Assembly: GCA_028870115.1 (NCBI GenBank)
Contig: JAGWQH010000029.1
Span: 1-64,000 of the forward strand
Origin: Candidatus Methylomirabilota bacterium
GTDB taxonomy: Bacteria > Methylomirabilota > Methylomirabilia > Methylomirabilales > Methylomirabilaceae
Length of the DNA stretch: 64,000 nucleotides
Direction: 5' to 3'
Shown here: positions 361 to 14,685 of the stretch, in pieces
Layout: every line of letters starts with the position of its first letter
Numbering within the stretch: the first letter of the stretch is position 1
Program-made: the position numbers and the translations under genes
Notes under the pieces: model-generated
What the model was told of the DNA's origin: nothing
Seen by the model: only the letters and a program-made list of their open reading frames with translations
Databases searched by the model: none

Positions 361-1914
361 ATGGTGTCAACCGCTGAACTCGCGAAGGCTGTGGAACAGG
401 CCTTGGCGTATCTGAAGTCGGCCGAGCAGGTGACCGAGGCCGAGGTGTTCGCAGCAAGCAACGGCAACCTTCTGGCCCGGCTGAACTACACCTCGCATAT
501 CCCCTGCAATGGCGTCGAAGAGCCGAAATCGAGCGAATCGTACGGTCTTGGAATCACGGCGGCCTTCAAGACGGAGGCCGGTATCATGCTGGGGTTCGGC
601 AGCGAACCGAGCGATCTGAGTCTTGACGGGGTCAAAAGGGCCCTTGAGAAGGCTAGGCGCGGCGCCGTCGCCGATCCCGAGTTCTCGTCGCTGCCGAGAC
701 CGACAGGTGAGCGGCGAAGACTCCGCCGCTACCACGATCTGAAGCTGATGAAGATTCGGGATGAGGAACTGGTTGAGGTCGGTTGGAGGGTGTTGCGGGG
801 GAGCCTGAAGACCTTTCTCAACTCGCCCAGGCTGCTGGACCTGGCGGGCACCCAAGACCGAATCAAAGAGTTGGGCCTCATCGTCGGCGGCGACGTCACG
901 ATTCAGCAGGAGCGGATTGCGATTGCCTCGACTGCGATGCCGGAGGCCCAGACCGACGAATCGACGCTGATCATGGCCTTTATCACTGCCATGGTCGAGG
1001 CCAAAGCTTCCAAAGGTAGCGGCTGCTCCGCCGGCACCCGCCTGGATCAATTTACTGACGATGCCGGCGTAGAAGCCGCGCAGAACGCCCTCGCGGCGAT
1101 CGGCGGGGAGCGGATCAAGGGCGGGCAGTATACGGTCATCTTTGGGCGTCAGCCGGTCGCGGATCTCCTGAATAATCTGATTCTGCCATCCCTCAGCCTC
1201 GGTAACTTTTACAGCGACAGCTCCGCGTTCATGGGACGACTCGGCAAGCGCATCGCATCGAAGCAGTTGACTGTGTACGACCATGGTGCGCAGCGCGGGC
1301 TGATGGGCAGTAAGGGGATTACCTGTGAAGGGCTGCCGACTGGGAAAACGCGGCTGATCCAGCGGGGTAAGCTGGTCGGGCTGCTCACGAACTATTATGA
1401 GCAGCAGCGGATTCTCAAAGATGTCAGGAGCACAGAGAAACTGGGGGTCGACCCGAATCAGCACGGCAGCGCGATCGTTCCACGCAACGGTTTCCGGTTC
1501 TGGGCAGGCGGCGGACGGCAGTTCGGTGTCCAACCTGGCATCGCCTCTACCAACGCGGTCGTACAGGGTGGAGATCAGAGCCTCGACGAGCTGATTGCCA
1601 CCGTCAAAGACGGCCTGTTGATCGGTCGGATCTGGTATACGTATCCCATCAATGGGCTGCGGGCGGGCGACTTCACCTGCACAGTCGTCGGCGACTCATA
1701 CATCATCAAGGATGGACGGATTGCAGCGCCGCTGAAACCAAACACGGTGCGAATCAACGACAATATCCACTCCATCCTTTCCCATATCGTTGCAGTCGGC
1801 AAGGAGGTCAAGGGAACCTTGGTCTGGGCGGCAGACGAGGTGGTCTATACGCCTGAGATCGCCGTACGCAATGTGAAGCTTGATGAGATTGCCGCCTTCA
1901 TGGAACAACTGTGA
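361..1914 (+). CDS. tldE: TldE/PmbA-family protein
   Basis: A 517-residue protein of the TldD/PmbA family, longer than the roughly 450 residues usual for PmbA. It starts at ATG with GGAGG at 352-356. The N-terminal third (residues 20-110) is the domain with the YGLGITAAFKTEAG strand, the middle is the long helical domain, and the C-terminal domain runs to the end with GLPTGKTRLIQRGKLVGLLTNYYEQ and a late YPINGLRAGDFTCTVVGDSY segment. No HExxxH zinc motif is visible, as expected for the non-catalytic TldE partner; the partner encoded just upstream would carry it. The two would act as a TldD-TldE peptidase in the cytoplasm. Substrate is unknown. Confidence 0.8.
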   Translation: MVSTAELAKAVEQALAYLKSAEQVTEAEVFAASNGNLLARLNYTSHIPCNGVEEPKSSESYGLGITAAFKTEAGIMLGFGSEPSDLSLDGVKRALEKARRGAVADPEFSSLPRPTGERRRLRRYHDLKLMKIRDEELVEVGWRVLRGSLKTFLNSPRLLDLAGTQDRIKELGLIVGGDVTIQQERIAIASTAMPEAQTDESTLIMAFITAMVEAKASKGSGCSAGTRLDQFTDDAGVEAAQNALAAIGGERIKGGQYTVIFGRQPVADLLNNLILPSLSLGNFYSDSSAFMGRLGKRIASKQLTVYDHGAQRGLMGSKGITCEGLPTGKTRLIQRGKLVGLLTNYYEQQRILKDVRSTEKLGVDPNQHGSAIVPRNGFRFWAGGGRQFGVQPGIASTNAVVQGGDQSLDELIATVKDGLLIGRIWYTYPINGLRAGDFTCTVVGDSYIIKDGRIAAPLKPNTVRINDNIHSILSHIVAVGKEVKGTLVWAADEVVYTPEIAVRNVKLDEIAAFMEQL

Positions 1915-1954: not shown

Positions 1955-2971
1955 ATGAACAGCGCTCTGCAACGGTTCAAACCTGCGCTACGATCCCTCC
2001 TCATCCTGTTCGGGCTTGTCGGAATCGTCTGGCTCTGCGGGAGGATCGGATGGCCGGCGATTCGGGCCAATATCTCCGTAATTGGAAAATGGTTCTTTCT
2101 GCTGGTGGTTCTGTACCTCTTTGCGCAGATGGCCTTTATGTCCGGATGGTGGGTCGTGATCGGGTCCAGGGCCAGACGGATCGGGTACTGGCGGATGTTC
2201 GGCGTCTATCTTGTCGGCGATTCTATCAACTATTTTGTTCCGCCCGCCAACCTGGCCGGAGAACCTGTCAAGGCCCATCTGCTGAGCAGATCGGTCGGAT
2301 TCAGCCGATCGGTGACCTCGATCATGGTTCACAAACATGCGGAGATTGTGGCGCAGGTCTTATTCCTCAGCCTGGGCTTGAGCATCGCGGTGGCCCAGTT
2401 CGCGCTTCCTACCGGACTTCGAGTTGCTGCGCTTATGCTTCCGGCTGGGATGGGGGTTGTCGTGGTGGCCGCCTTCTGGGTCCTGAAGAGGCGGGCCTTC
2501 GGGACATTGATCCGTGGGCTGGTGAAAATCGGGATCAAACCGGAGCAGATCAAGCCCGAATGGCATGCCACCGCGTCGTTGGATCGGTGGCTTGCCCTCT
2601 TCTACAAGACCCGTATGCCGGTCTTCTACTGGGCGACGTTTCTGTGCCTGCTGGGATGGTGCGGCGGTCTGCTCGAGACCTACGTGGTGCTGCAGCTACT
2701 GTCGGCGGAGCCGAGCCTCGGGACGGCAGTGGCAGTGGAAAGCCTGGCGATGATGCTGAATACCATCATCTTCTTTATCCCGGGGCGGGTCGGGAGCGCT
2801 GAAACGGTGAGAGTCGCAGTCTTTTCGGTCTTAGGACTGCCCGCCGCGCAGGGCGCCGTCTATAGCATTATTCGCCGGGGAAGAGAAGTTACCTGGGCTA
2901 TTCCCGGCCTGCTCATCCTGCTCGCAATCAAGATGGGAATCGGAAGAGCGCCCGGGGAGGTTGCCGGCTGA
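1955..2971 (+). CDS. LPG-synthase-TM / HpnL-like flippase-type membrane protein
   Basis: The product has about 338 residues and seven to nine hydrophobic segments, with SINYFVPPANLAGEPVKAHLL in the middle and NTIIFFIPGRVGSAE near the end. This is the pattern of the lysylphosphatidylglycerol synthase TM family (PF03706; includes HpnL and the glycolipid-linked UPF0104 proteins), which move or help move lipids across the inner membrane. I chose the ATG at 1955; a TTG/ATG pair at 1880-1885 would overlap the tldE gene by 30 bases. Its stop overlaps the ATG of the next gene by one base (TGATG), so it is translationally coupled to the headgroup cluster that follows. Hopanoid transport (HpnL) is an alternative role because hpnN and hpnM lie 8 kb downstream on the other strand. 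Confidence 0.7.
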   Translation: MNSALQRFKPALRSLLILFGLVGIVWLCGRIGWPAIRANISVIGKWFFLLVVLYLFAQMAFMSGWWVVIGSRARRIGYWRMFGVYLVGDSINYFVPPANLAGEPVKAHLLSRSVGFSRSVTSIMVHKHAEIVAQVLFLSLGLSIAVAQFALPTGLRVAALMLPAGMGVVVVAAFWVLKRRAFGTLIRGLVKIGIKPEQIKPEWHATASLDRWLALFYKTRMPVFYWATFLCLLGWCGGLLETYVVLQLLSAEPSLGTAVAVESLAMMLNTIIFFIPGRVGSAETVRVAVFSVLGLPAAQGAVYSIIRRGREVTWAIPGLLILLAIKMGIGRAPGEVAG

Positions 2972-3657
2972 TGGCCATCCAGAGATCGGCGAAGGCGGTC
3001 CTGCTCGACTTTGGAGGCACCCTTGATGCCGACGGGATTCCCTGGAAAGACAGATTCTATCCGCTCTACCTCGCTGAACAGGTGGGGGTAGACCGCGATC
3101 GATATGAACGGGCGTTCTATGCTGCCGATGATGCGCTGGTGGCGCGGCGACTTTCTTGCTCGTTTCGGGAGAGCGTCTTGCTCCTGGTCACAGGCGTGCT
3201 GGAAGCGTTGAATGTCACTGATTCGGGATTGGCATTGCGCCTGTGCGACCGGTTTCTGCAGGACTCGTTGGATAAGATTCGCGTCAATCTCGAGATCCTG
3301 CGCGAGCTGTCGGCGCGATTTCGGCTCGGCATCGTCTCGAACTTCTACGGCAATCTCGAACAGGTCTGCATCGAGACAGGACTTGCCCCATTCATGAGCG
3401 TAATGGTTGACTCGGCCTGCGTCGGGTTTATCAAGCCGGATCCCAGGATCTTTCAGGTCGCGCTGACGCAGTTGCAACTGGAACCGAGAGAGGCGATATT
3501 CGTCGGGGACTCATTACCTCGAGATATGATGGGGGCGAAGGGCCTCGGGATGCCTCATGTCTGGCTTATCTCGGATCACTCCGGTTCTCTCGCGCCCTGC
3601 TGCCCAGACGATCTCACCATCAAGTCCTTCGCAGATCTTCAAGAGGTGCTCCTGTGA
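2971..3657 (+). CDS. HAD-superfamily phosphatase
   Basis: A 228-residue HAD-IA hydrolase. Motif I is LLDFGGTLD (residues 11-19), motif II is IVSNFYGN, motif III lysine sits in GFIKPDPRIF and motif IV is AIFVGDSLPRDMMGAKGLGM. The first motif reads DFGGT, so the acid/base Asp of the usual DxDGT is a Gly; DFGGT variants occur in the family, but this may change the preferred reaction. In this cluster the obvious job is removing a phosphate from an inositol-phosphate intermediate, for example phosphatidylinositol phosphate or an inositol phosphate. It overlaps its neighbours by one base upstream and four bases (GTGA) downstream. Confidence 0.75.
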   Translation: MAIQRSAKAVLLDFGGTLDADGIPWKDRFYPLYLAEQVGVDRDRYERAFYAADDALVARRLSCSFRESVLLLVTGVLEALNVTDSGLALRLCDRFLQDSLDKIRVNLEILRELSARFRLGIVSNFYGNLEQVCIETGLAPFMSVMVDSACVGFIKPDPRIFQVALTQLQLEPREAIFVGDSLPRDMMGAKGLGMPHVWLISDHSGSLAPCCPDDLTIKSFADLQEVLL

Positions 3658-4409
3658 ATCCACTTACAACCCCTCTGGCGGACCCAGGAGAACTTCTCAC
3701 GGGGGGTATCATTGCGGCCGGGGAAGGTTCCCGGTTGAAACAGGACGGCCTGAAGATGCCGAAGTCGATGGTGCCCGTTGCCGGTGTCCCGCTGATCGAG
3801 CGGGTGGTGAGCAACTTTGTGAAGGTCGGTATTACACGGCTACAGATCATCTTCAACGAGGACGACCGGAAGTGCGCCACATTCATCCGGGAGCGGTTCC
3901 CGAGCCTCGATATACAATGCATCGTAAAAACGACGCGCTCATCGTATGAAAGCTTCTGGGAGGTCGGCAGGCGATCCGGTCCAGGCCGTGTCCTTATGTC
4001 CACTGTGGACTGGATCTGTTCGGAGCCGGCGTTTCACCGATTCATCGATCAAGCGATGCGCTACCGTCAAGCTTCTGTTGTTCTCGCTGTCACACCGTTC
4101 GTAGCCGACGAGAAGCCTCTCTGGGTAACCATGGATCCCTCCGGGCGCGTGACGGCCATCGGTGGCGCTTCGGGTGATGTTGTGACCGCCGGACTCTATC
4201 TGGTATCCGGCGCCATCTTTACGCAGGCCCCCCACCCCTCCACATTGAGTCGGCTTCGAGACTTTTTGACGTGGCTGGTCGCCGAGGGGGGGTCGGTCTA
4301 CGGGGTGGTGATGGACCAGGTTATCGACGTCGATCGGTCCGAGGATCTGCAGCTGGCTGAAACAGTTGTACAACAACATGGCTGTAAAAGCGGAGGCAGC
4401 GCCGAATGA
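3654..4409 (+). CDS. Sugar/inositol-phosphate nucleotidyltransferase
   Basis: 251 residues with the NTP-transferase signature near the start: GGIIAAGEGSRLKQ followed by MPKSMVPVAGVPLIERV. The fold is that of sugar-1-phosphate nucleotidylyltransferases. A second conserved region, SYESFWEVGRRSGPGRVLMSTVDWI, matches the active-site strand with a D before the metal site. It starts at GTG 3654 inside the HAD stop and ends with ATGA into the ATP-grasp gene. Next to a myo-inositol-1-phosphate synthase and a DIPP-synthase-like phosphotransferase, a likely reaction is CTP plus inositol-1-phosphate to CDP-inositol. Substrate and nucleotide are inferred from context only. Confidence 0.75.
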   Translation: MNPLTTPLADPGELLTGGIIAAGEGSRLKQDGLKMPKSMVPVAGVPLIERVVSNFVKVGITRLQIIFNEDDRKCATFIRERFPSLDIQCIVKTTRSSYESFWEVGRRSGPGRVLMSTVDWICSEPAFHRFIDQAMRYRQASVVLAVTPFVADEKPLWVTMDPSGRVTAIGGASGDVVTAGLYLVSGAIFTQAPHPSTLSRLRDFLTWLVAEGGSVYGVVMDQVIDVDRSEDLQLAETVVQQHGCKSGGSAE

Positions 4410-5293
4410 TACCGCATCTTTGGGGGATCTATCGTGAACAGCAGCACTCGCCGGGTCGGGAATTCGACGATGCGGAGATCCTGCGGCTTGTGGCCAAATA
4501 TATTGAAGCGGAGGGCTACCAGGTAAGCCTCAAGAGGCCGGAGGAACTCGGCGCGATCGACGATCCTGCAACCGGGCTCGTGGCCGACCCTTCGCCGTCA
4601 CTTGTATTCCTGATGTGCGAACGGTTGGAAGCCCTCGGCGCGCTTGAGTCGCTGGAGATGAAAGGAATCCCGCACGTCAACCCGCTGCAGGCTGTGTTGA
4701 ACACCTATCGGGACCGCATGATCCCGCTCCTTCTCGCCTCAGCGATTCCGATCCCGCAGAGCCAGGTCATCTCGAGCACCTCTTTCGACCATGGTCGGTC
4801 TTCGCCGCAACTCCCGACACCCCCTTTTCCGATCTGGGTCAAGCGGGCCGACGTGCACAATACCCAGACGGGGGATGTTGAATTGCTGCGATTTCCGGAG
4901 GAGTTGTACAACAGGCTGGCCGCGCTGAACACCAGGGGGATTGTCCGCGCTGTTCTGCAGCGACACGTGCCGGGAGACCTGATCAAATTTTACGGGATCG
5001 GTAGATCAGATGGTGAAAATCGGCAGGAGCAATGGTTTCGCTGGTTCTATCATCGAGATCAGGAGCTCAACAGGTATCCATTTTCGGAAGAGGCCTTGCA
5101 GGCCATTGCCCAGCGTGCGGCTATAACTCTTCGTCTTGAGGTGTACGGAGGTGATGCCATCGTCACGCCTCGCGGGGAGATATTCCTCATCGACATCAAT
5201 GCCTGGCCGTCGTTTGCGTTGTTTCGCGAGGAGGCTGCTCCCCAGATCGCCGCATGGCTGCTGCATCGCGTAAGGAGGGAAGCGCTCCAATGA
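4406..5293 (+). CDS. ATP-grasp-fold ligase-like protein
   Basis: 295 residues that end in an ATP-grasp pattern: FPIWVKRADVHNTQTGDVE (nucleotide-binding lysine), a LQRHVPGDLIKFYGIG strand and the metal-binding close GEIFLIDINAWPSFALF, where D and N fit the usual D-x-N pair. The N-terminal 120 residues look like the pre-ATP-grasp domain. ATP-grasp enzymes join a carboxylate to an amine or thiol with ATP. In this operon it could attach an amino acid or another acid to an amino group made by the following aminotransferase. It overlaps both neighbours by four bases (ATGA). I do not recognise the exact subfamily. Confidence 0.65.
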   Translation: MIPHLWGIYREQQHSPGREFDDAEILRLVAKYIEAEGYQVSLKRPEELGAIDDPATGLVADPSPSLVFLMCERLEALGALESLEMKGIPHVNPLQAVLNTYRDRMIPLLLASAIPIPQSQVISSTSFDHGRSSPQLPTPPFPIWVKRADVHNTQTGDVELLRFPEELYNRLAALNTRGIVRAVLQRHVPGDLIKFYGIGRSDGENRQEQWFRWFYHRDQELNRYPFSEEALQAIAQRAAITLRLEVYGGDAIVTPRGEIFLIDINAWPSFALFREEAAPQIAAWLLHRVRREALQ

Positions 5294-6615
5294 AGCGACA
5301 CATTCCCGGCAAACGGTCGAAGGCGATTGTTGCCCGAGAGCAACGCCATATGGCGCCGGGCCTGCAGTCGATCGCACTGTATTCCGGATTGGCGATGGCA
5401 AGAGGGGAAGGGTGCACCCTGATCGATGAGGACGGCAACCGATATCTCGATTTCATGGCCGGAATCGGCGTGGGGAGCATCGGGCATACGCACCCGCACT
5501 ACGTCGAAGCCATGAAGGCTCAGATCGAGCGGCTGACGTTCGGCAGCTTCACCACCGAGAATCGGGCCCGGTTCCTCGCGCTGTTAGCGTCGGTGACGCC
5601 GCGAGGGCTCAAGCGGATCCAGATGTTTTCCGGCGGCGCGGAAGCGGTCGAGGCCGCCTTCCGACTGGCCAAGTCGGTGACGAAGAAGTTCGAGTTTGTC
5701 GGATTCTGGGGCGCGTTTCATGGTAAGACCGGCGGTGTCCTTGGGCTGTTGGGGGACGACTTTAAGAAGCAGTTGGGACCGTTTGTCCCCGGCCTCTACA
5801 GCGCCCCGTACGCGAACTGTTATCGCTGTCCCTTGAGGCTCCGCTATCCCGACTGCGGCATTGCCTGCGCGGACTTCATGCGCGAGGTCATCCGCTATCA
5901 GACCCAGGGCGAGATTGCCGCCATTATCGTGGAGCCGATCCAGGGGACTGCCGGAAACGTCATTCCGCCCCCAGGGTTCTTGAGTGCGGTGCAGGCGATT
6001 GCCAAGGAGTGCGGCGCCCTGTTGATTGCCGATGAGATGCTGACAGGCTTCGGCCGCACCGGTTCGATGTGGGGGTGCGATCACGAGCCGATTGTGCCGG
6101 ATGTGATGACCGTCGGGAAGGGAATCGGCGGGGGGTTCCCGGTCAGCGGAGTCATCTCGACGCAAGAACTGATGGCGAGTAAGCCCTTCAGCAATCCGAG
6201 CGGCAGCTCCTCAAGCTATGGAGGCAATCCGCTCGCCGCAACAGCCGGGCTGGCCGCTCTCGAGGTGATTCTCAAGGAACAGCTTGTTGCGAATGCGAAG
6301 CGTATCGGCGCGGTCATGCTGAAGCAACTGGAAGCGATGAAGGAGAAATACTCATTTGTCGGCGATGTGCGGGGCCGAGGGCTCTTGCTCGGCATCGAAC
6401 TGGTCAAGGATAGGCAGACTAAGGAGCCGCTTCCGAAATCTCTCACCCAGAAGTTGTTTCAGAGTTGCCTCAAACGGGGACTGCTGGCCATGTGCTATTC
6501 CTATAACATCCGGATCAATCCGCCTCTCATCATCACCGAACAGCAGGCATTGGAAGGTCTGGCTATCCTGGATGAGGCCTTTGCCGAACTCAATAAAACA
6601 GGGTATAGGGGTTAG
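5290..6615 (+). CDS. Class III PLP-dependent aminotransferase
   Basis: 441 residues with the class III aminotransferase layout: GEGCTLIDEDGNRYLDFMAG at residues 38-57, the cofactor-binding GGAEAVEAA, IIVEPIQGTAGN, ADEMLTGFGRTG with the PLP Asp, and the Schiff-base lysine in MTVGKGIGGGFPVSGVIS. A cysteine-rich insert (NCYRCPLRLRYPDCGIAC) sits where many 4-aminobutyrate-type enzymes have one. I chose the ATG at 5290, which overlaps the ATP-grasp stop by four bases; an upstream in-frame start at 5254 lacks a ribosome site. Next to an oxidoreductase and inositol synthase, conversion of an oxidised cyclitol to an amino-cyclitol is a reasonable guess. A hopanoid side-chain aminotransferase (HpnO is also class III) is the main alternative. 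Confidence 0.85.
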   Translation: MKRHIPGKRSKAIVAREQRHMAPGLQSIALYSGLAMARGEGCTLIDEDGNRYLDFMAGIGVGSIGHTHPHYVEAMKAQIERLTFGSFTTENRARFLALLASVTPRGLKRIQMFSGGAEAVEAAFRLAKSVTKKFEFVGFWGAFHGKTGGVLGLLGDDFKKQLGPFVPGLYSAPYANCYRCPLRLRYPDCGIACADFMREVIRYQTQGEIAAIIVEPIQGTAGNVIPPPGFLSAVQAIAKECGALLIADEMLTGFGRTGSMWGCDHEPIVPDVMTVGKGIGGGFPVSGVISTQELMASKPFSNPSGSSSSYGGNPLAATAGLAALEVILKEQLVANAKRIGAVMLKQLEAMKEKYSFVGDVRGRGLLLGIELVKDRQTKEPLPKSLTQKLFQSCLKRGLLAMCYSYNIRINPPLIITEQQALEGLAILDEAFAELNKTGYRG

Positions 6616-6629
6616 GGTATGTGGGAGCG

Positions 6630-7688
6630 ATGTTGAAGGGGGCCATCATCGGCCTGGGCAATGTGGCGGTGAATGGGCATCTGGTCGGATGGGAAGGATG
6701 CGAGCAGGCTTGGATTGTTGCCGCCGCTGATGCCCTTGAATCGAGACTCGCCCAGGAGCGATCGCGTCTTCCGGGAGCGAGGCTCTATGCCGATGTGTCG
6801 GCGATGCTGGCTGCCGAGGCCATTGACTTTGTCGATATCTGCACGCCCCCTGGAACGCACGCATCCCTGATACGGCTGGCTTTGAGTCGCGGGCTGCATG
6901 TGCTGTGTGAAAAGCCGCTCGTGCTCACGCCGGACGAGTTGCGGCTGGTCGGTGATGCCAGGGCGGAAAGCGGTCGTATTCTCCATACAGTCCACAACTG
7001 GCGATACGCGCCGATTATCATGCAGGCGACAGCCCTGATCCGGCAAGGACAGATCGGGACCGTACAGTATATAAGCTGGCACGTCCACAGGCGCGAACCG
7101 TCGATCGCAGTACAGTCGGCCTCGGGTCCCGTCGACAGCGCGGTCAGTGATCCTTCGACTATGCTCAGGACAGGCAACTGGCGGCTGGATCCGGCCATTG
7201 CCGGCGGCGGCATCCTGCTCGATCACGGCTACCACGCTCTGTACATCGTGTTGGACTGGCTGGGGGAGGCGCCTCGGACGATCACGGCCACGTTGGAAAA
7301 GCGTCGGCATCCGGAGTGGCCGGTTGAGGATACGGCGAATGTTCGACTAAGGTCGTCTGCAGCCGAAGTCGAAATCCTTTTGACGTGGGCTTCTTCGTCG
7401 CGGAGCAATCGGGCCGTCATCGAAGGAACCTGTGGGACGATCCGGATCGAGGACGGCACCCTGGTGTTGAAACGCGACGAGGGCGAGCAGAGTTGGACAT
7501 TTGAGGAGCCGCTTTCGCAGGGCTCTCATCACCCGGAATGGTTTCGCCAGGTACGGGATGAGTTTCTGCGGGAGATATCGGCCGCTGGGCGAGACGGGGA
7601 GAACCTGGCCATGGCGTCGCGCTGTGTGCAGCTTCTGCACCTCGCCAAGGAATCGGACAGCCAAGGAGGTAAGGCGTTAGCCTTGTAG
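6630..7688 (+). CDS. Gfo/Idh/MocA-family oxidoreductase
   Basis: About 352 residues. The N-terminal Rossmann domain opens with KGAIIGLGNVAVNGH, DICTPPGTHASL follows, and the catalytic lysine is in HVLCEKPLVLTPDEL. The C-terminal half has GGGILLDHGYHALYIVLDWLGE, typical of inositol and sugar dehydrogenases of this family. The ATG at 6630 is preferred; a GTG at 6621 is also possible. Near residue 175 an insert reading DPSTMLRTG is encoded by a short dispersed repeat (7152-7174), so this stretch is probably not ancestral. The stop TAG lies in a second repeat (7685-7736). In this operon it may oxidise inositol or an inositol phosphate to a ketone before transamination. Confidence 0.85.
   Translation: MLKGAIIGLGNVAVNGHLVGWEGCEQAWIVAAADALESRLAQERSRLPGARLYADVSAMLAAEAIDFVDICTPPGTHASLIRLALSRGLHVLCEKPLVLTPDELRLVGDARAESGRILHTVHNWRYAPIIMQATALIRQGQIGTVQYISWHVHRREPSIAVQSASGPVDSAVSDPSTMLRTGNWRLDPAIAGGGILLDHGYHALYIVLDWLGEAPRTITATLEKRRHPEWPVEDTANVRLRSSAAEVEILLTWASSSRSNRAVIEGTCGTIRIEDGTLVLKRDEGEQSWTFEEPLSQGSHHPEWFRQVRDEFLREISAAGRDGENLAMASRCVQLLHLAKESDSQGGKALAL
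7152..7174. repeat. Short dispersed repeat inside a coding region
   Basis: A 23-base stretch beginning CCTTCGAC and ending GCTCAGGACAGG lies in frame in the oxidoreductase gene. The ending in reverse complement (CCTGTCCTGAG) recurs at 10324-10334, and a related TTCGACAGGGCTCAGG form is at 15720-15736. It resembles the short palindromic repeats seen in many GC-rich bacteria; the family name is not known to me. Confidence 0.55.
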
Positions 7689-7736
7689 GGGCAGGCCTCG
7701 CCCTGCCCATAAGGGCGCAGTAGGCGGCGCCCCTAC
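7685..7736. repeat. Hairpin repeat over the stop codon
   Basis: Outer arms GTAGGGGC (7685-7692) and GCCCCTAC (7729-7736) are perfectly complementary. Inside lies a second hairpin, GGGCAGG then CCTGCCC, at 7689-7708. The first TAG is the stop codon of the oxidoreductase, so the element touches the gene end. A related, less perfect hairpin is at 51368-51388. It fills most of the gap between two genes of the same operon and could affect downstream expression or RNA stability. Confidence 0.6.
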
Positions 7737-7752
7737 CGTACGGTCTGAAGTG

Positions 7753-8952
7753 ATGGTCAGCAAGCCAGCCACAATTGTGATCATGATCTCAAAGGGCTCT
7801 GGCGAGGTCGGTCCGGATACCGTGGTATTGGGGCTGCCGTTGCTTCGACGGATTGTGTTGATGGCCTCTCGCGCCGGCTGTCGGGATATCCTGGTTGTCG
7901 ATAATGGATCATTCGAGTGCGGGAAGCTGCTGGAGGGAACGAAGGCGGTGCTGCTGCCTCCAGCCAGGTTAGCCGGCTATCAACCCTCCGATCGTATCCT
8001 GGTGCTGACCGCCCACATCCTTCCCCATCCCTTGCTCCTGACGCATCTGACTGAGATGCCGTTACACCCTGAGGCGATATGTGTCCCCACCAGCGGAATC
8101 GCCGCCGTTGAGACGGCCGATCCCAAAACTTGTCTGTCAATGATCGAGCGCGCAAACGACGACCGGTCTCTGTTCTTCGAGCTGGAGCAGAGCTACCACA
8201 AGGCGAGCGTGTCCATCGATGACGGACGCTGGGTCAGGATCTCGAACCGAGCGGATCTCCCTCATGCTGAGCGGTGGCTCCTGAGGGGTCTGATTAAAGA
8301 TACGGAAGGCTTCATGTCGAGGCATGTCGAACGGAAGATCTCGCTGGCGGTGACGCGCCGCCTCGTGGGCACCGATCTCACCCCGAACCAGATGACCGCC
8401 GTGAGCGTGGCAATCGGTATCGTGGGGGCGCTGTTCTTCCTCTCGTCTACGTCTGCGTATCAACTGATCGGCGCGCTGTTGTTCCTCCTGCATTCGATCC
8501 TGGACGGCTGCGATGGGGAGATCGCCAGACTCAAATATCTGGAATCCCGTTTTGGCGGTCTTCTGGATTTCTGGGGGGATAATGCCGTTCACTCGGCAGT
8601 ATTTCTATGCATCGGTCTGGGATGGTGGATGGCCGACGGGGCGCTGTTACCGCTGCTGCTGGCCTGCTCCGCAACGGTGGGAGGCTTGCTGTCGGCTGGA
8701 TTCGTCTATCGGCAGACCATGCGGCACAAGCGTTCCGAGGGGCCGCTTTTTACGTCCATCACCACCTCTGAGGTCCCATCCCGCCTTTCTGTGCTTGCCG
8801 ATGCCCTCGCAAGGCGGGATTTCATCTACCTCGTGTTCATCCTCTCAGCCTTCGGAAAGGCACACTGGTTTCTGGTGCTCTCGGCGATTGGAGCGCCGAT
8901 CTTTTTCATGGTCGTATTGTGGAACTCGTATAGGGAAGGGGTACAGGCATGA
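7753..8952 (+). CDS. CDP-alcohol phosphotransferase with N-terminal nucleotidyltransferase-like domain
   Basis: About 399 residues. The C-terminal half (from about residue 180) is a CDP-alcohol phosphatidyltransferase domain: LTPNQMT, then the metal and substrate motif D-G-C-D-G-E-I-A-R with the later G-x3-D-x3-D pair in FGGLLDFWGDNAVH, and several membrane segments. The N-terminal half resembles the cytidylyltransferase part of bifunctional IPCT/DIPPS proteins but lacks a clear GxGxR nucleotide signature. The phosphotransferase domain would join CDP-activated lipid or inositol to an alcohol in the membrane. ATG 7753 is preceded by an in-frame GTG at 7750. It overlaps the inositol-phosphate synthase gene by four bases, tying its substrate to inositol phosphate. 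Confidence 0.8.
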   Translation: MVSKPATIVIMISKGSGEVGPDTVVLGLPLLRRIVLMASRAGCRDILVVDNGSFECGKLLEGTKAVLLPPARLAGYQPSDRILVLTAHILPHPLLLTHLTEMPLHPEAICVPTSGIAAVETADPKTCLSMIERANDDRSLFFELEQSYHKASVSIDDGRWVRISNRADLPHAERWLLRGLIKDTEGFMSRHVERKISLAVTRRLVGTDLTPNQMTAVSVAIGIVGALFFLSSTSAYQLIGALLFLLHSILDGCDGEIARLKYLESRFGGLLDFWGDNAVHSAVFLCIGLGWWMADGALLPLLLACSATVGGLLSAGFVYRQTMRHKRSEGPLFTSITTSEVPSRLSVLADALARRDFIYLVFILSAFGKAHWFLVLSAIGAPIFFMVVLWNSYREGVQA

Positions 8953-10322
8953 GTCAAAGGAGTTCGTTCTATCCCGAATTGAAGCGAGACATTGCGTCTC
9001 CTCATGGTAAGTTGGGCGTACTGATCCCGGGGTTGGGGGCGGTCGCGACGACGCTCATTGCGGGGGTCCACCTGATCAATAAGGGACTGTCCCAACCGTA
9101 TGGCTCTCTCACGCAGATGCAGCGCATGCGCCTGGGTAAGCGGACCAGTCCTCGCTATGCGCCGATCAAGGAGGTCGTTCCCCTCGCCGACCTGAACAAT
9201 CTGGTCTTCGGCGGCTGGGATATTTTTCCCGAGGATGCCTATCAGACCGCGTGCCATGCCGGAGTGCTGCCCAGAGAGTTGCTGGACCAGGTCAAAGACC
9301 AACTGGAAGCGGTGAGACCGTGGCCGGCAGTCTTTGATCAAGCCTATGTGCGAAGGCTCTCAGGGACGAACCTGAAGTCAGGTCTGAGCAAGCGGCACCT
9401 GGCAGACATGCTGATCGAAGATATCGAGGCATTCCGCCAGAGGGAAGGGACGCAGCGGGTCGTTATGATCTGGTGCGGATCGACAGAGGTCTTCATGCAG
9501 CCGGCGCCGGTGCACGAGACCATTGAAGCCTTTGAGGCCGGCCTGAAGGCGAACGCCCCGGAAATTTCTTCGAGCATGATCTATGCCTACGCCGCCATCT
9601 CAGCCGGTGTCCCCTTTGCGAACGGCTCACCCAGTTTGGCGGTAGATATCCCGGCGCTGATCGAATTCGCTCATCAGCGTCACGTTCCGATCGCCGGAAA
9701 GGATTTCAAGACCGGCCAGACCTTTCTGAAAACCGTGGTCGCGCCCGGGCTGAAGGCCAAGATGCTGGGGTTGAACGGCTGGTTCTCTACCAACATCCTG
9801 GGCAACCGGGACGGCGAGGTGTTGGACGATCAGGGATCGTTCAGAACCAAAGAGGTCAGTAAGGGCTCGGTGCTGGAGGCGATTGTGCAGCCGGAGCTCT
9901 ATCCGGAGCTGTATGGGCAGGTCTTCCACAAGGTCCGCATTGAGTATTATCCGCCTCGCGGCGATGCCAAGGAGGGGTGGGATAACATCGACATCTTTGG
10001 TTGGCTCGGGCAGCCGATGCAGATCAAGATCAACTTTCTCTGCCGGGATTCTATCCTGGCGGCGCCGGTGGCCCTGGACCTCACGCTGTTTCTGGACCTG
10101 GCGCAGCGGGCCGGATTATCGGGCATACAGGAGTGGCTCTCGTTCTACTTCAAGTCTCCGATGGCCCGAGCGGACCTGAAGCCTGAGCACGATCTGTTTA
10201 TCCAGCATCTGAAGCTGACAAATACCTTGCGCATCCTGGTCGGAGAAGAGGTGCTTGACCACTCCGGACTTGATTACTACGAATCTGGAGATGCCTATCG
10301 AGCGGGCATGGGCGGGGCGTGA
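8949..10322 (+). CDS. ino1: myo-Inositol-1-phosphate synthase
   Basis: 457 residues that convert glucose-6-phosphate to 1L-myo-inositol-1-phosphate with NAD. Visible family marks are LGVLIPGLGAVATTL (NAD site, residues 18-32), WCGSTEVF, the GKDFKTGQT active-site motif, LGLNGWFSTNILGNRDG, and KVRIEYYPPRGDAKEGWDNID. This is the long eukaryote/actinobacteria-type enzyme. It begins four bases inside the phosphotransferase gene and is the last gene of the plus-strand cluster. It supplies the inositol phosphate that explains the rest of the cluster. Confidence 0.93.
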   Translation: MSQRSSFYPELKRDIASPHGKLGVLIPGLGAVATTLIAGVHLINKGLSQPYGSLTQMQRMRLGKRTSPRYAPIKEVVPLADLNNLVFGGWDIFPEDAYQTACHAGVLPRELLDQVKDQLEAVRPWPAVFDQAYVRRLSGTNLKSGLSKRHLADMLIEDIEAFRQREGTQRVVMIWCGSTEVFMQPAPVHETIEAFEAGLKANAPEISSSMIYAYAAISAGVPFANGSPSLAVDIPALIEFAHQRHVPIAGKDFKTGQTFLKTVVAPGLKAKMLGLNGWFSTNILGNRDGEVLDDQGSFRTKEVSKGSVLEAIVQPELYPELYGQVFHKVRIEYYPPRGDAKEGWDNIDIFGWLGQPMQIKINFLCRDSILAAPVALDLTLFLDLAQRAGLSGIQEWLSFYFKSPMARADLKPEHDLFIQHLKLTNTLRILVGEEVLDHSGLDYYESGDAYRAGMGGA

Positions 10323-10357: not shown

Positions 10358-11014
10358 CTACATCGACCCCTTCTTTGCCGCCCGCCCCAGCCCCTCCGAC
10401 TCTCGCTTGAGCTGCATCTTCTTGACGAGGGCTTCATACGACTGGTCCCGGATGACCTTATCGAACTGTTTTCGATAATTTCCTACGATGCTCACCTCGT
10501 CGATCACCACATCGTAGGGGACCCAGTCGTTGCCTCGGCGAAGGAGGGCAAAGTCGACAAACGTCGGCTCATTCCTTTTCGAGAGGAACTTGGTTTTGAC
10601 GATGGCGTCCTGCGCATCGATCTTCTCCGAAAGGTAGCTCACCCGTTGGTCGCCGAGATGATCGACCACTAACGTTGTATAGGACTCTACAAACAGATCC
10701 CCGAACAGCTCAACGAAATCTTTTCGCTCCTGGCCTGATCGCTTTGCCCAGTGGCCGGCCAGAGAGCGGCGCGCCATCTCCTGCAGATCGAACCAGCGTA
10801 AGATCCGCTCTTTGACCATCGATTTCCGCACCTCTTCCTTCGCCTTTTCCTGTAAGGCGGGATCCTTCACGATGGCGGTAAGCTGATCCAGCTCGGTTTT
10901 TACCTGATCAGTTGTTCCGCTCGCGAAGGCGAACGCCGCAAAGACCAACAACCCCAGAGCTACGGCTCCACTGAATACTCCCGTTCGTACGGCCAACCTT
11001 GCAGCACCTGACAT
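10358..11014 (-). CDS. hpnM: HpnM / MlaC-family periplasmic lipid-binding protein
   Basis: 218 residues with a signal peptide (hydrophobic residues 13-32, cleavage near FASG). The mature part matches the Ttg2/MlaC family: RWFDLQEMARRSLAGHWAKRS, ELFGDLFVESYTTLV, and NDWVPYDVVIDEVSIVGNYRKQF. These proteins carry lipids across the periplasm. It begins one base after the hpnN stop with AAAGGAG as ribosome site, the arrangement of hopanoid transport operons. The hopanoid label comes from this pairing. Confidence 0.85.
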   Translation of the reverse strand: MSGAARLAVRTGVFSGAVALGLLVFAAFAFASGTTDQVKTELDQLTAIVKDPALQEKAKEEVRKSMVKERILRWFDLQEMARRSLAGHWAKRSGQERKDFVELFGDLFVESYTTLVVDHLGDQRVSYLSEKIDAQDAIVKTKFLSKRNEPTFVDFALLRRGNDWVPYDVVIDEVSIVGNYRKQFDKVIRDQSYEALVKKMQLKRESEGLGRAAKKGSM

Positions 11015-11015
11015 G

Positions 11016-13889
11016 TTACTTCTCCTTTGTGGTAAATACCGTTTCCTGTTCTATGCTCCGAGTGCTCGATTCAATGTGTCCTGTAACGCTTTCAGCCCGG
11101 AACCCCCCGGAACCCAACACCGCTTTCTTTAATGGGTGCCTGGCCACGATGGTGAGGAGGGCCGGCAACACGATAACAGAGACAACCAGGACGGCTCCAA
11201 CCCCCAGCGTGACCAGAAGACCGATGCTGAATGCGCCGCGGTGGTGAGCAATAAGGAGGCTGCCGAAGCCGATCATAGTTGTCAGTGACGAGAGCGCCAC
11301 ACCCTTCCCGATGCTTCTTGGCAGCACGGCGGCCTCCGCCTCCTCTCGGAAGCGATGGATAATCAATAGGCCATTCTCCACCCCGGGCGCCACAATCAGC
11401 GGGATGATAATCAAGTTGGCCAGGTTGAACCTGAGCTGAAAGAGATGCATCAGGCCGGCGGTCCAGATGGCTCCAATCAGCAAGGGGATCTTGGCCAGCA
11501 GGAAGTAGCGCAGATCGCGTAGATTCAGTAAGAATAACGCAGCCACCCCGATCAACGCATAGATCGCCACCTGCTGATATCCTCGCTTCATCGCGGTGAT
11601 GACTTCGTATCCCTTCACGGGGTCGCCGACAGCGTCAGGATCAACCGATCTCAGGTCGCGTACGAACGCAGTCTGCGAGGCAAGCTCCCACGGGTCGCCT
11701 CGCGGATAGACCCGAAGCAGAAACGAACCGTCCCGCCCCACGAACTGCTCTTTCAGATCATTCGGCACATCATTGAGCCCGACCGGACCGGAGGCCACTG
11801 CCCTGGCGAGAAGCGACATCTTATCATAGAAATCGTGGAACAGTTTACTCTGAAAAACGGCAAGTCTCCGACCGATCTCTGCGTGGTCTCGGTATTGGAG
11901 CCGTCGCTCGAATTGATCGATCAGGTTTCGTACTCGCGCCATCTGTTCCAGGGGCGGCTTTTCCTTCCCGGTCCACTTCTCAGCATCCTCCTCCGTCAGC
12001 ATCTTGGCCTTGACCCGATGTAGTGTGTTCAGCAGGTCATCGAGATCGACCGGGCCAGGCTGAGGTAGTCGCGAAAGGTCCACCCCGGCCAAGATCGGCT
12101 CGAGCTTGCGGGCCAGTAGGAGCTTACGCTCTTGATCCTCCGGGATAACCATCGCGATACTCTCGACCTTGCTCACCGAGGGGAGCGCTTCGAGGGCCTC
12201 AGTCTTCGTTCTGACCTCTTCGAGACTCTTGGCCAAAATCGCCCCATAGATGGTCGAACGCTCAGACTGACGGATGATCTTGAGCTCCCAGTCCACCGCC
12301 TCGGTCCCTTCCGCCTGAAGGCGGAGGACGTTGCCGTCGAATTCGATGCGGCTCATCGCATACAGGGCCAAAACTGTCGCGACCGATGATAGAACAAGGA
12401 CGGTACGGGGGCGCCGATACCAGAATTCCATAAAATCCGGGGGCCTCGGCAAGTGCGGCAGCGGCCAGTGGACTTCGCTGGCCTTGCCGATGGCGCGCCC
12501 TTCGACGGATGCTGCGGTGAGCGCCGCCGAAGCACGCAGGGCGGGCCGCTTATCCCACAACAGGAGCAGCGGTGGGAAGACGACAAAAGTCGAGACCAGC
12601 GTGAGCAGCAGGCCGCACCCGGTGATCAGGCCCAACTCCTGCAAAATGCCGATCCCGGTCAAAATGAGGGTAAAGAGGGCGACAGAGGTCGTCACGGCCG
12701 CGTGCAGGATCCCCGGACCGGCCCCTTCAAAGGCCTGCTCCAACGCCTCACGAATCGGGTGACCGGCGGCCCGCTCCTCTTCGTATCGGGCCAGAAGATG
12801 GATGCCGTAGTCCATCCCGATCCCTATCAGCATCGGCGCCAAGACCATCGACAGCATGTTCAGATGGCCGACTGTCACAGCGGCAAACCCAAAGGCCCAG
12901 CAGATTCCCATGACCAGCGCAATCAACCCCATGAGGGGTCTCAACACGCCCCGAAAGACCACCACCACCAACAGAGCTACACCGCCGAGGGAGATGAGCG
13001 ACATCAGCCCGGAATCCCGTTGTGCGGCGGTCACCTCATCGGTCTCGAGGGCCGGGCCCCCCGTGACGCCGGCCATGACCCCCGGATACCGCGCTTGCAG
13101 TAGTCGAATTTCCCGGCGGATCGCTTGAATCGGCCGCTCGAACTTGTGCAGGCTCTTCGTATCCGCTTTCACAGTGGCCAGGACAAATAGGAACCGTTTG
13201 TTATCGGACCATAGGTAGCCTTCCCGTTCGCCGTTCTCATCGGCCTCGACCATGAACTGCTTCCACGGTGAGGTGTAGGTCCGCGGGGCGGCCGCCCACG
13301 CATCAAGTTGCGTGAGCAGCGCAAGAAGCGGCTGAAGCTCGACAGGACCCTTGGCCTCGTCATTCTCCTCTTCGCCCAGGAAGCCTGTAAACAGATGACC
13401 GACCAACGCCGCGCTGATCTCTCGATGGATCAGTTGGAACAGGTGATTCAGGCCCGGATTGGCAGACAGCTCCTCCAGCAGTGAGCGATGCTCCTGTAGC
13501 TTACTCTGCAGGTCGCTGATCTCTTGTGGAGTCAGGTACATCAGAAAATGATCCTCTAACGATGTGAGATCAAAGCGGTAGATTACCTCCTCAATCTCCG
13601 GCAACGCCTCCAGCCGGCCGGCAAGGACAGCGGCATAACGCTTGGCCTGTTCCTGATCTTTGGCCTCCACAACGATGACCGCGCGGTCCGGATCGCCGAA
13701 CGCCTGGTTGTAATGTTCTTGAACCTGGCCGACCCGGCCGCTAAGGGGGGATAGCGCCTCATGCGTGGAGGTGAAGCTCAGTCGCATAATCGATGTCCAG
13801 ACTGAAAGCAGCGTGAGCAGTATCGCCGCAACCAGCGTGATCCTGGGGTAGGCGAGGACCGTATGGGACAGCAGCTTTCGAAGACTCAT
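11016..13889 (-). CDS. hpnN: HpnN-type RND/MMPL exporter
   Basis: A protein of about 957 residues with an RND/MMPL layout: one N-terminal membrane helix (RITLVAAILLTLLSVW), a large periplasmic loop, a first block of five helices with GIGMDYGIHLLARYEEER, a second loop, and a closing block of helices. HpnN proteins move hopanoids to the outer membrane. The second block has GVENGLLIIHRFREE where the first has the usual charged GIGMDYGIH, so the proton-relay Asp is in the first block only. I chose the ATG at 13889; an upstream TTG at 13922 would overlap DUF309. It sits 10 bases after the DUF309 stop and one base before hpnM. Confidence 0.88.
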   Translation of the reverse strand: MSLRKLLSHTVLAYPRITLVAAILLTLLSVWTSIMRLSFTSTHEALSPLSGRVGQVQEHYNQAFGDPDRAVIVVEAKDQEQAKRYAAVLAGRLEALPEIEEVIYRFDLTSLEDHFLMYLTPQEISDLQSKLQEHRSLLEELSANPGLNHLFQLIHREISAALVGHLFTGFLGEEENDEAKGPVELQPLLALLTQLDAWAAAPRTYTSPWKQFMVEADENGEREGYLWSDNKRFLFVLATVKADTKSLHKFERPIQAIRREIRLLQARYPGVMAGVTGGPALETDEVTAAQRDSGLMSLISLGGVALLVVVVFRGVLRPLMGLIALVMGICWAFGFAAVTVGHLNMLSMVLAPMLIGIGMDYGIHLLARYEEERAAGHPIREALEQAFEGAGPGILHAAVTTSVALFTLILTGIGILQELGLITGCGLLLTLVSTFVVFPPLLLLWDKRPALRASAALTAASVEGRAIGKASEVHWPLPHLPRPPDFMEFWYRRPRTVLVLSSVATVLALYAMSRIEFDGNVLRLQAEGTEAVDWELKIIRQSERSTIYGAILAKSLEEVRTKTEALEALPSVSKVESIAMVIPEDQERKLLLARKLEPILAGVDLSRLPQPGPVDLDDLLNTLHRVKAKMLTEEDAEKWTGKEKPPLEQMARVRNLIDQFERRLQYRDHAEIGRRLAVFQSKLFHDFYDKMSLLARAVASGPVGLNDVPNDLKEQFVGRDGSFLLRVYPRGDPWELASQTAFVRDLRSVDPDAVGDPVKGYEVITAMKRGYQQVAIYALIGVAALFLLNLRDLRYFLLAKIPLLIGAIWTAGLMHLFQLRFNLANLIIIPLIVAPGVENGLLIIHRFREEAEAAVLPRSIGKGVALSSLTTMIGFGSLLIAHHRGAFSIGLLVTLGVGAVLVVSVIVLPALLTIVARHPLKKAVLGSGGFRAESVTGHIESSTRSIEQETVFTTKEK

Positions 13890-13899
13890 TCGGCAGGCC

Positions 13900-14685
13900 T
13901 CATATCCGGCTGTATACTCCAATGAGGGGCATATTCGGGATCATCCGACGATCGAAGAGGTCAAACGCCGCTTCTCCAAGCGATTCGATCGACTGCCGGG
14001 CGCGCTCAACCTGCGCCAGAAACTGATCCAGCTCTACGCCGCATCGATCCGAACCATACCTCTTAACCTTTTCAATCCCTTCCTGCAGGAGGAAGAGGGC
14101 GCCCCTGATGTTGTTGTTCTCCAGATGGTGAAACCCGACTGCAATCTGGATAAGTCCCTGCAAGAGAAGACGCGCACCCTCGGCTTCCGTGAGCCATACC
14201 GCCTCGAGGACCTCGTGCACCTCGAAGAACAGGCTCTCATTAAAGAGGTACGCAGCCTCTTCTAGCGACCGCTCCACCTGGCTGGCCGAGCGAGACCTCC
14301 GTCGTGACACCCGCTCTAACACCCGGCAGTAGGCGTCAATCCTGTCAGTTACAGCGGACAGCTCCGCTTGCAGCGCCTCTCCGAAGGCCAGCTGAGCCTG
14401 CCCGCTCTCCTGGGCAAGGGTGCGTAACAAACGAGCCGCAAGCAGCTCATCGATCGCCTCGGCTGCAGTCATCCCAATCCCGACCTCACCGAACGTCCGT
14501 TCTGCCGTCTTGACCAGCGCATCACGGCTCACCCCGGCCTGTCCCTGCCCGCTGAGCATATCCCCAAACGAGCGGAGCAGGTACAGCGGCGCAGCCCGGT
14601 TGTCCATTTGGAGCGCGTTACTCAACAACTCGCTCAGCCGGTCGCGGAGGTCAATACTCCGGATCGGCGGCGGGATAGTCCGCAT
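13900..14685 (-). CDS. DUF309 protein
   Basis: About 261 residues. The C-terminal 130 residues hold the DUF309 signature: FNESLFFEVHEVLEAVWL, then LLLQGLIQIAVGFHHLENNN, then GALFLLQEG. The conserved E, H and H residues resemble a helical metal-binding site, but no reaction is established for the family. The N-terminal 120 residues are helical and not recognised. The ATG at 14685 is preferred over a TTG at 14727. It lies between an acyl-CoA ligase and hpnN in one operon, which suggests a lipid-related role; that is inference. Confidence 0.75.
   Translation of the reverse strand: MRTIPPPIRSIDLRDRLSELLSNALQMDNRAAPLYLLRSFGDMLSGQGQAGVSRDALVKTAERTFGEVGIGMTAAEAIDELLAARLLRTLAQESGQAQLAFGEALQAELSAVTDRIDAYCRVLERVSRRRSRSASQVERSLEEAAYLFNESLFFEVHEVLEAVWLTEAEGARLLLQGLIQIAVGFHHLENNNIRGALFLLQEGIEKVKRYGSDRCGVELDQFLAQVERARQSIESLGEAAFDLFDRRMIPNMPLIGVYSRI

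Follow-up and report, generated by a model that had tools for sequence, protein, structure and literature searches.

A conserved eight-gene operon for a putative aminated inositol phospholipid headgroup in Methylomirabilota and other bacterial phyla

This locus raises the question of which product is made by an operon in which a myo-inositol-1-phosphate synthase and a CDP-alcohol phosphotransferase are accompanied by an oxidoreductase, an aminotransferase, and an ATP-grasp protein. In the window, i.e., the whole 64,000-nt stretch of Methylomirabilota DNA that was analyzed, eight open reading frames, all on the + strand, span positions 1955 to 10322, and the eight families that the initial annotation had named were all found there. 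They encode a flippase-like integral membrane protein (LPG_synthase_TM, 1955–2971; PF03706, 2.7e-29), a HAD-IA hydrolase (HAD, 2971–3657; PF00702, 1e-15), a nucleotidyltransferase (3654–4409; PF12804/PF00483), an ATP-grasp protein of an undescribed family (4406–5293), a class III PLP aminotransferase (AT3, 5254–6615; PF00202, 1.5e-102), a Gfo/Idh/MocA oxidoreductase (Gfo, 6621–7688; PF01408, 1.4e-19), a CDP-alcohol phosphotransferase (7750–8952; PF01066), and myo-inositol-1-phosphate synthase (INO1/MIPS, 8949–10322; PF07994, 2.6e-96, and PF01658, 7.5e-30). Seven of the eight scored above the Pfam cut-off in these families (HAD also as HAD_2, Gfo as GFO_IDH_MocA). The genes mostly overlap by one to four bases, as had been noted; this was true at five of the seven junctions, with 1 bp between the PF03706 and HAD genes and 4 bp at HAD/nucleotidyltransferase, nucleotidyltransferase/ATP-grasp, and phosphotransferase/INO1. 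The ATP-grasp/AT3 overlap is 4 bp from the conserved ATG at 5290, which is the likely AT3 start, and 40 bp from the first ATG at 5254. Gaps of 5 and 61 bp separate AT3 from Gfo and Gfo from the phosphotransferase gene, respectively.

The order HAD, nucleotidyltransferase, ATP-grasp, AT3, Gfo, and phosphotransferase is kept throughout Methylomirabilota, and the identical order was also found in Elusimicrobia, Acidobacteria, Alphaproteobacteria, and Deltaproteobacteria, with an INO1 that is usually present and sometimes non-orthologous. Of the 26 loci outside Bacteroidales that had 6 kb or more of sequence on each side, AT3 and Gfo were each present in 26, the HAD, nucleotidyltransferase, and phosphotransferase genes in 25 each, and INO1 of either type in 16. 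The eight-gene grouping is beyond chance, as its order recurs in other genera, families, and phyla; the neighbor-conservation check thus showed that these families do not occur together only in the window. A tblastn search of plasmids with the phosphotransferase gave only weak, partial matches.

The window INO1 is the single INO1 match in the genome. The 34 genomes carrying the ATP-grasp gene all had INO1, compared with 12 of the 26 that lacked it (Fisher p = 5.6e-7 over 60 relatives, which are not phylogenetically independent). In Alphaproteobacteria and Rokubacteria, the block is joined by a different, non-orthologous INO1, so that two types of INO1 enter the cluster in different lineages. 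In most Rokubacteria, INO1 lies outside the block, elsewhere in the genome, which we counted against our explanation. Together with the co-occurrence, the two INO1 types support the inositol origin proposed in the initial annotation, and the headgroup is very likely to be inositol-derived.

The CDP-activated route to this headgroup was also supported. The nucleotidyltransferase has an intact AAGxGxR...PK motif, with G25, R27, K37, and D119 invariant in 21 sequences; it matched the IPCT part of NCBIfam NF041135 below the cut-off, and its PDB relatives include 4jd0 and the CTP:phosphocholine cytidylyltransferase 1jyk. The phosphotransferase motif DxxDGxxAR(8)GxxxDxxxD is likewise intact (D252, D255, G256, A259, R260, G269, D273, and D277 invariant), and its relatives are AF2299 (8.5e-31) and the IPCT-DIPPS protein 4mnd (1.7e-22), with Foldseek matches to 4o6n, 4q7c, and 4mnd. 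Its degenerate N-terminal domain has a nucleotidyltransferase-like fold that matched RmlA, MurU, and IspD; it lacks AGxGxR/PK and showed a weak profile match to the nucleotidyltransferase (probability 47%). In HAD, motif I reads D13-F-G-G-T, in which Gly replaces the second Asp, a feature also counted against our explanation; D13, G15, and T17 are invariant in 16 relatives, and the Bacteroides graminisolvens HAD has the identical motif. The PDB relatives of HAD were uninformative on its substrate.

Comparison with known systems places the operon near inositol lipid synthesis. In Bacteroidales, the loci read nucleotidyltransferase, ATP-grasp, phosphotransferase, in some cases the PF03706 gene, and HAD, with INO1 and never with AT3 or Gfo; in the B. 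graminisolvens cluster (L113), INO1 and the genes for the nucleotidyltransferase, phosphotransferase, HAD, PF03706 protein, and ATP-grasp protein all stand in one row. The nucleotidyltransferase, phosphotransferase, and HAD genes share a cluster with INO1 in the window, in L113, and in other Bacteroidales. An alternative inositol-lipid cluster, called putative, was described in B. vulgatus (BVU_RS13095-13115), and its carriers B. vulgatus and P. veroralis make phosphoinositol dihydroceramide (Heaver et al. 2022, PMC9246714). This cluster shares INO1, the nucleotidyltransferase, the phosphotransferase, HAD, and the PF03706 protein with the window but lacks the aminotransferase and oxidoreductase, and its phosphotransferase has no N-terminal pseudo-domain; the text on it leaves the ATP-grasp gene unmentioned and gives HAD a different role (PMC9246714). 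Among the papers searched, none described a pathway with all eight genes, in agreement with the earlier statement; six of these genes, however, match this Bacteroidetes cluster. In Bacteroides thetaiotaomicron BT_1522-1526, INO1 also feeds a CDP-alcohol phosphotransferase for inositol lipids, through CDP-DAG and inositol-P, a PgpA-type phosphatase, and an AUR1-like transferase (PMC9246714); neither an AUR1-like IPC synthase nor a PgpA-type phosphatase was found among the eight genes and two neighbors scanned. The archaeal and Thermotogal IPCT-DIPPS system for di-myo-inositol-phosphate and AF2299 share with the window INO1, CTP-activated inositol, a CDP-alcohol phosphotransferase, and the two-domain fold. 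By contrast, an active cytidylyltransferase domain fused at the phosphotransferase N terminus is absent from the window, where the active nucleotidyltransferase is a separate gene and HAD, the ATP-grasp gene, AT3, and Gfo are added.

AT3 is the best conserved protein of the block (72–96% identity across the class), with K289 and D260 invariant. Gfo carries EKP (K98) and GGGxLxDHGxH, and its catalytic Lys-Asp-His, as in IolG, is present (K98, D201, and H205 invariant in 16 sequences); the IolG family TIGR04380, at 69.7 bits against a cut-off of 355, was still its best NCBIfam match. The two always co-occur with their catalytic residues intact. The ATP-grasp protein had no Pfam match at 0.001 and only a weak NCBIfam match, to RimK. 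Its AlphaFold (AF2) model (pLDDT 91.7) has a clear ATP-grasp fold, for which Foldseek ranked D-Ala-D-Ala ligase (Ddl), RimK, and ArgX nearest, with no ITPK among the 50 matches listed. K146, H151, K194, D250, and D263-x-N265 are invariant in 36 sequences. A scan of viral contigs with this protein gave no relatives.

The analysis showed which genes are present, that their order and linkage are conserved, which families they belong to, and that their catalytic motifs are intact. From this we infer the following pathway, including every reaction, the step order, the product, the site of the amine, and the lipid that accepts the headgroup. INO1 would convert glucose-6-phosphate to inositol-phosphate, and HAD, the proposed cyclitol-phosphate phosphatase, would free inositol or trim a bisphosphate. 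Gfo, as an inositol dehydrogenase, would oxidize one ring hydroxyl to give an inosose, which AT3, as an inosose aminotransferase, would convert to an inosamine. The ATP-grasp enzyme, as a cyclitol(-phosphate) kinase, might phosphorylate the (amino)cyclitol at whichever position later forms the linkage, and the phosphate would therefore be moved from the INO1 site. The nucleotidyltransferase, as a CTP:cyclitol-phosphate cytidylyltransferase, would yield a CDP-cyclitol, the phosphotransferase would transfer this headgroup to a membrane lipid alcohol, and the PF03706 protein would flip the lipid product. In the inosamine branch of streptomycin (aminoglycoside) synthesis, inositol-P is converted via inositol, inosose, and inosamine to inosamine-phosphate. 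The step logic is shared, but the streptomycin pathway uses a DegT-type aminotransferase and yields an antibiotic, whereas the window enzyme is class III and its product would go to a CDP-alcohol phosphotransferase.

We therefore regard it as somewhat probable that the product is a phospholipid headgroup derived from inositol, most likely aminated (inosamine-type), and that the operon builds it through CDP activation. Because the Bacteroidales set without the pair matches the cluster of Heaver et al., the window operon can be read as a CDP-inositol lipid pathway plus an oxidation–transamination pair; this aminocyclitol branch is apparently widespread and undescribed, and a literature search on inosamine or aminocyclitol phospholipids found nothing relevant. 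Somewhat short of an even chance is our wider proposal that several phyla contain unrecognized inosamine-headgroup phospholipids made via CDP-aminocyclitol, and that the ATP-grasp proteins form a new bacterial cyclitol kinase family that also completes the alternative Bacteroidales pathway. If this is true, several largely uncultured phyla, among them Methylomirabilota and Elusimicrobia, would turn out to make a zwitterionic aminocyclitol phospholipid that is new to the bacterial repertoire. It would also give a candidate function to a gene undiscussed in the described cluster of gut Bacteroidales and suggest a route to CDP-inositol lipids linked at a position other than that of the INO1-installed phosphate. 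An overlooked lipid type thus becomes testable, as distantly related bacteria, gut Bacteroidales among them, carry the gene set with or without the amination genes.

The pair and the ATP-grasp protein each admit another reading. AT3 and Gfo could belong to an unrelated pathway and simply be carried along in the operon, leaving ordinary phosphatidylinositol as the lipid, and the other six genes do appear to be enough for an inositol lipid in Bacteroidales; this is improbable, however, given that both genes occur in every fully flanked non-Bacteroidales locus, in several phyla, and lie mostly between the ATP-grasp and phosphotransferase genes, with AT3 the best conserved. The absence of the pair from the simpler Bacteroidales version agrees with its initial description as an addition; most simply, it would give an inosamine headgroup, and amination appears reasonably likely. 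The initial annotation had raised the possibility of an amino-acylated headgroup, for which the ATP-grasp enzyme would act as a carboxylate–amine ligase adding an amino acid to the aminocyclitol. Its nearest folds suit this idea, and RimK and the ATP-grasp-domain protein 7drm are among its sequence relatives. The gene nevertheless stays in Bacteroidales clusters without AT3 or Gfo, the amine-making enzymes, so its role must be independent of an amine and need not be amino-acylation; relatives of these Bacteroidales reportedly make plain phosphoinositol dihydroceramide. Moreover, the metal motif is D-x-N in 36/36 sequences, as in the ITPK matches (IDINAWPSF versus IDINAFPGY), whereas the RimK and 7drm alignments show E-x-N. 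ITPK PDB entries matched by sequence (E 0.003–0.018), and weak Pfam matches among the 36 members were to RimK in 11 and to Ins134_P3_kin (PF05770, ITPK; best E 0.0018) in 9; the window protein reached 11.8 bits for RimK-like PF08443 (cut-off 21). At the family level, the match to ITPK is weak, and the fold search ranked ligases first, with D-Ala-D-Ala ligase entries predominating. Known ITPKs do not use free inositol but do use Ins-3-P (PMC8024741). We consider amino-acylation rather unlikely; a cyclitol (phosphate) kinase, at nearly an even chance, fits better but is unproven.

The product of the proposed pathway is likely to be a lipid rather than a solute. A soluble, di-inositol-phosphate-like compatible solute would suit the phosphotransferase, which is most like the IPCT-DIPPS/AF2299 group, and the best partial NCBIfam match, a DIPP-synthesizing fusion. 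This is quite unlikely, however, considering the PF03706 membrane protein in the operon and its Bacteroides version, the MlaC and RND genes that flank many copies of the block, and the inositol lipids made by Bacteroidetes with the alternative cluster. DIPP solutes, moreover, are typical of hyperthermophiles. A hopanoid acceptor, e.g., bacteriohopanetetrol, would give a phospho-cyclitol hopanoid: at loci L047 and L056, the operon is flanked by genes for squalene-hopene cyclase, MlaC, and RND; in the window, its neighbors include MlaC/HpnM-like and RND genes; the flippase comes closest to HpnL; and the window genome has a squalene-hopene cyclase and an HpnH-like gene. Yet the cyclase linkage is confined to one family, the window genome's cyclase is on another contig, the HpnM match and the HpnL match (TIGR03476; 127.5 bits, cut-off 195.65) are below cut-off, and Bacteroidales carriers are reported to have inositol on ceramide or diacylglycerol lipids, which makes this acceptor very unlikely. 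Proximity to MlaC is only suggestive because Rokubacteria genomes hold many MlaC genes each. A nearby upstream TldD-like gene on the same strand (361–1914) was left out of the operon because it adjoins the operon only within the same genus.

All eight genes were found as plus-strand ORFs at 1955–10322 in the window, confirming the operon described in the initial annotation, and all except the ATP-grasp gene had a Pfam assignment above the cut-off (seven of eight). Its genes had been said to overlap mostly by one to four bases, and five of the seven junctions do so (1–4 bp); the other two are gaps of 5 bp (class III aminotransferase–Gfo/Idh oxidoreductase) and 61 bp (oxidoreductase–CDP-alcohol phosphotransferase). 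The aminotransferase probably starts at a conserved ATG at 5290, not at 5254. A PmbA/TldD-type metallopeptidase-like gene (361–1914, plus strand) lies directly upstream and adjoins the operon only within the same genus.

The ATP-grasp protein was present in 34 of 60 relatives, and the order HAD hydrolase–nucleotidyltransferase–ATP-grasp–aminotransferase–oxidoreductase–CDP-alcohol phosphotransferase was retained in 20 extended neighborhoods, where in most Methylomirabilales a PF03706 flippase-like gene precedes this block and myo-inositol-1-phosphate synthase (INO1) follows it. A genome-wide scan found more than 570 encoded relatives; among the best 80, the same block occurred in Elusimicrobia, Acidobacteria, Desulfobacterales, other Deltaproteobacteria, and Alphaproteobacteria, and Bacteroidales were also represented. 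The initial annotation had proposed neighbor conservation as a check. Outside Bacteroidales, 26 loci had 6 kb or more of sequence on both flanks, and these bore the conservation out: the aminotransferase and oxidoreductase were found in all 26, the HAD, nucleotidyltransferase, and CDP-alcohol phosphotransferase genes in 25 each, and INO1 in 16 (window type, 11; actinobacterial type, 5). The 12 equally flanked Bacteroidales loci contained the CDP-alcohol phosphotransferase (12/12), nucleotidyltransferase (8/12), HAD (7/12), and INO1 (6/12) genes, and neither the aminotransferase nor the oxidoreductase was detected in any of them. In two same-genus genomes (G002 and G006) neither INO1 nor the ATP-grasp gene is present, which suggests that the entire pathway was lost or that the assemblies are incomplete there. 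Many Rokubacteria copies carry a CopD-domain membrane protein gene after the CDP-alcohol phosphotransferase (L042:7429–8991, with the domain match; L043:13209–14771; L041:1294–2865).

INO1 was encoded somewhere in the genome of every one of the 34 relatives that carry the ATP-grasp gene, compared with 12 of the 26 that do not (Fisher p = 5.6e-7 over 60 relatives, uncorrected for relatedness); the 2.81-Mb window genome has a single copy. Two distinct INO1 lines have entered the cluster. The window type is 63 to 97% identical across Methylomirabilota, Acidobacteria, and Elusimicrobia, and a second type, with approximately 25% identity, occurs in loci L079, L091, L048, and L051 (PF01658 confirmed for L079, L091, and L051). 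Such an exchange of INO1 types next to an unchanged set of partners argues that inositol phosphate is functionally required.

Neither Bacteroides vulgatus nor P. veroralis uses the B. thetaiotaomicron genes to produce phosphoinositol dihydroceramide; a cluster comprising INO1, an NTP transferase, a CDP-alcohol phosphotransferase, and a HAD gene, acting via CDP-inositol, has been proposed as the alternative (Heaver et al. 2022, PMC9246714). In B. graminisolvens DSM 19988 (L113), INO1, nucleotidyltransferase, ATP-grasp, CDP-alcohol phosphotransferase, PF03706 flippase, and HAD genes are consecutive; therefore, the window operon corresponds to the alternative cluster plus the aminotransferase and oxidoreductase. 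The published B. vulgatus locus tags (NTP transferase 13095, transferase 13105, and HAD 13115; PMC9246714) leave one gene between the first two, the slot occupied by the ATP-grasp gene in L113, and we infer that B. vulgatus has it there too.

The CDP-alcohol phosphotransferase retains the complete catalytic motif and matches AF2299 and the A. fulgidus IPCT-DIPPS in sequence and fold. Its N-terminal 160 residues have a nucleotidyltransferase-like fold (RmlA, MurU, and IspD matches) that lacks the nucleotide-binding motif, which is present in the separate nucleotidyltransferase gene. The HAD protein, a putative phosphatase, has D-x-G-x-T where D-x-D-x-T is expected, as does the Bacteroides copy. 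The oxidoreductase retains Lys98, Asp201, and His205, and the aminotransferase, the best conserved protein of the operon, retains the PLP lysine. Oxidation followed by transamination is the textbook route for replacing a ring hydroxyl with an amino group, as in aminoglycoside cyclitols, to which we liken this pair. The step from 2-deoxy-inosose to 2-deoxy-inosamine has been described (PMC12689558).

The ATP-grasp protein could be a cyclitol(-phosphate) kinase or an amino-acid ligase. Its model (pLDDT 91.7) has D-Ala-D-Ala ligase, RimK, and ArgX as the nearest folds, and the best match of a broader sequence profile was another ATP-grasp protein, 7drm (E 1.5e-4), presumably a peptide ligase. Inositol phosphate kinases of the ITPK type, from human and plants, matched the same profile with E values of 0.003 to 0.018, and a RimK-type ligase matched at E 0.7. 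The metal motif is D-x-N in 36 of 36 members, as in the aligned ITPKs (IDINAFPGY), whereas RimK and 7drm have E-x-N. Because the gene persists in Bacteroidales although no enzyme for making an amine accompanies it, the simpler proposal is a kinase, which would shift the phosphate to the position used for linkage; we tentatively favor a kinase and consider a ligase less likely. ITPKs are known from archaea and accept Ins-3-P, not free inositol (PMC8024741), and the substrate of the candidate kinase could therefore be inositol or an inositol phosphate. The initial reading of the operon, as producing an aminated and perhaps amino-acylated inositol phospholipid headgroup, is largely supported, with the ATP-grasp step recast from amino-acylation since Bacteroidales keep that gene without amine-making enzymes. 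To the known CDP-inositol lipid pathway, these results add a probable aminated branch spread across several phyla, which is open to direct testing.

Adjoining the operon in convergent orientation (10358–13922, minus strand) are an MlaC-family gene with a sub-threshold HpnM match and a large gene for an RND-type transporter, identified by inspection of its translation; both are retained there in most same-genus loci examined. Squalene-hopene cyclase, MlaC, and RND genes flank the operon in L047 and L056, and the window genome carries squalene-hopene cyclase and HpnH-like radical SAM genes on a different contig. These placements would be compatible with a hopanoid as the acceptor or with trafficking of the lipid to the outer membrane. 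A probable phosphonolipid cluster lies directly upstream of the block in one Rokubacteria genome (L048:1683–6500, and L074:7281–8417); it encodes a PEP mutase–NTP transferase fusion, a phosphonopyruvate decarboxylase-like TPP enzyme, a further NTP transferase, and a CDP-alcohol phosphotransferase. Two more CDP-alcohol phosphotransferase genes are adjacent in the window genome, beside glycosyltransferase-like genes (L137:7708–10332; G000:C97).
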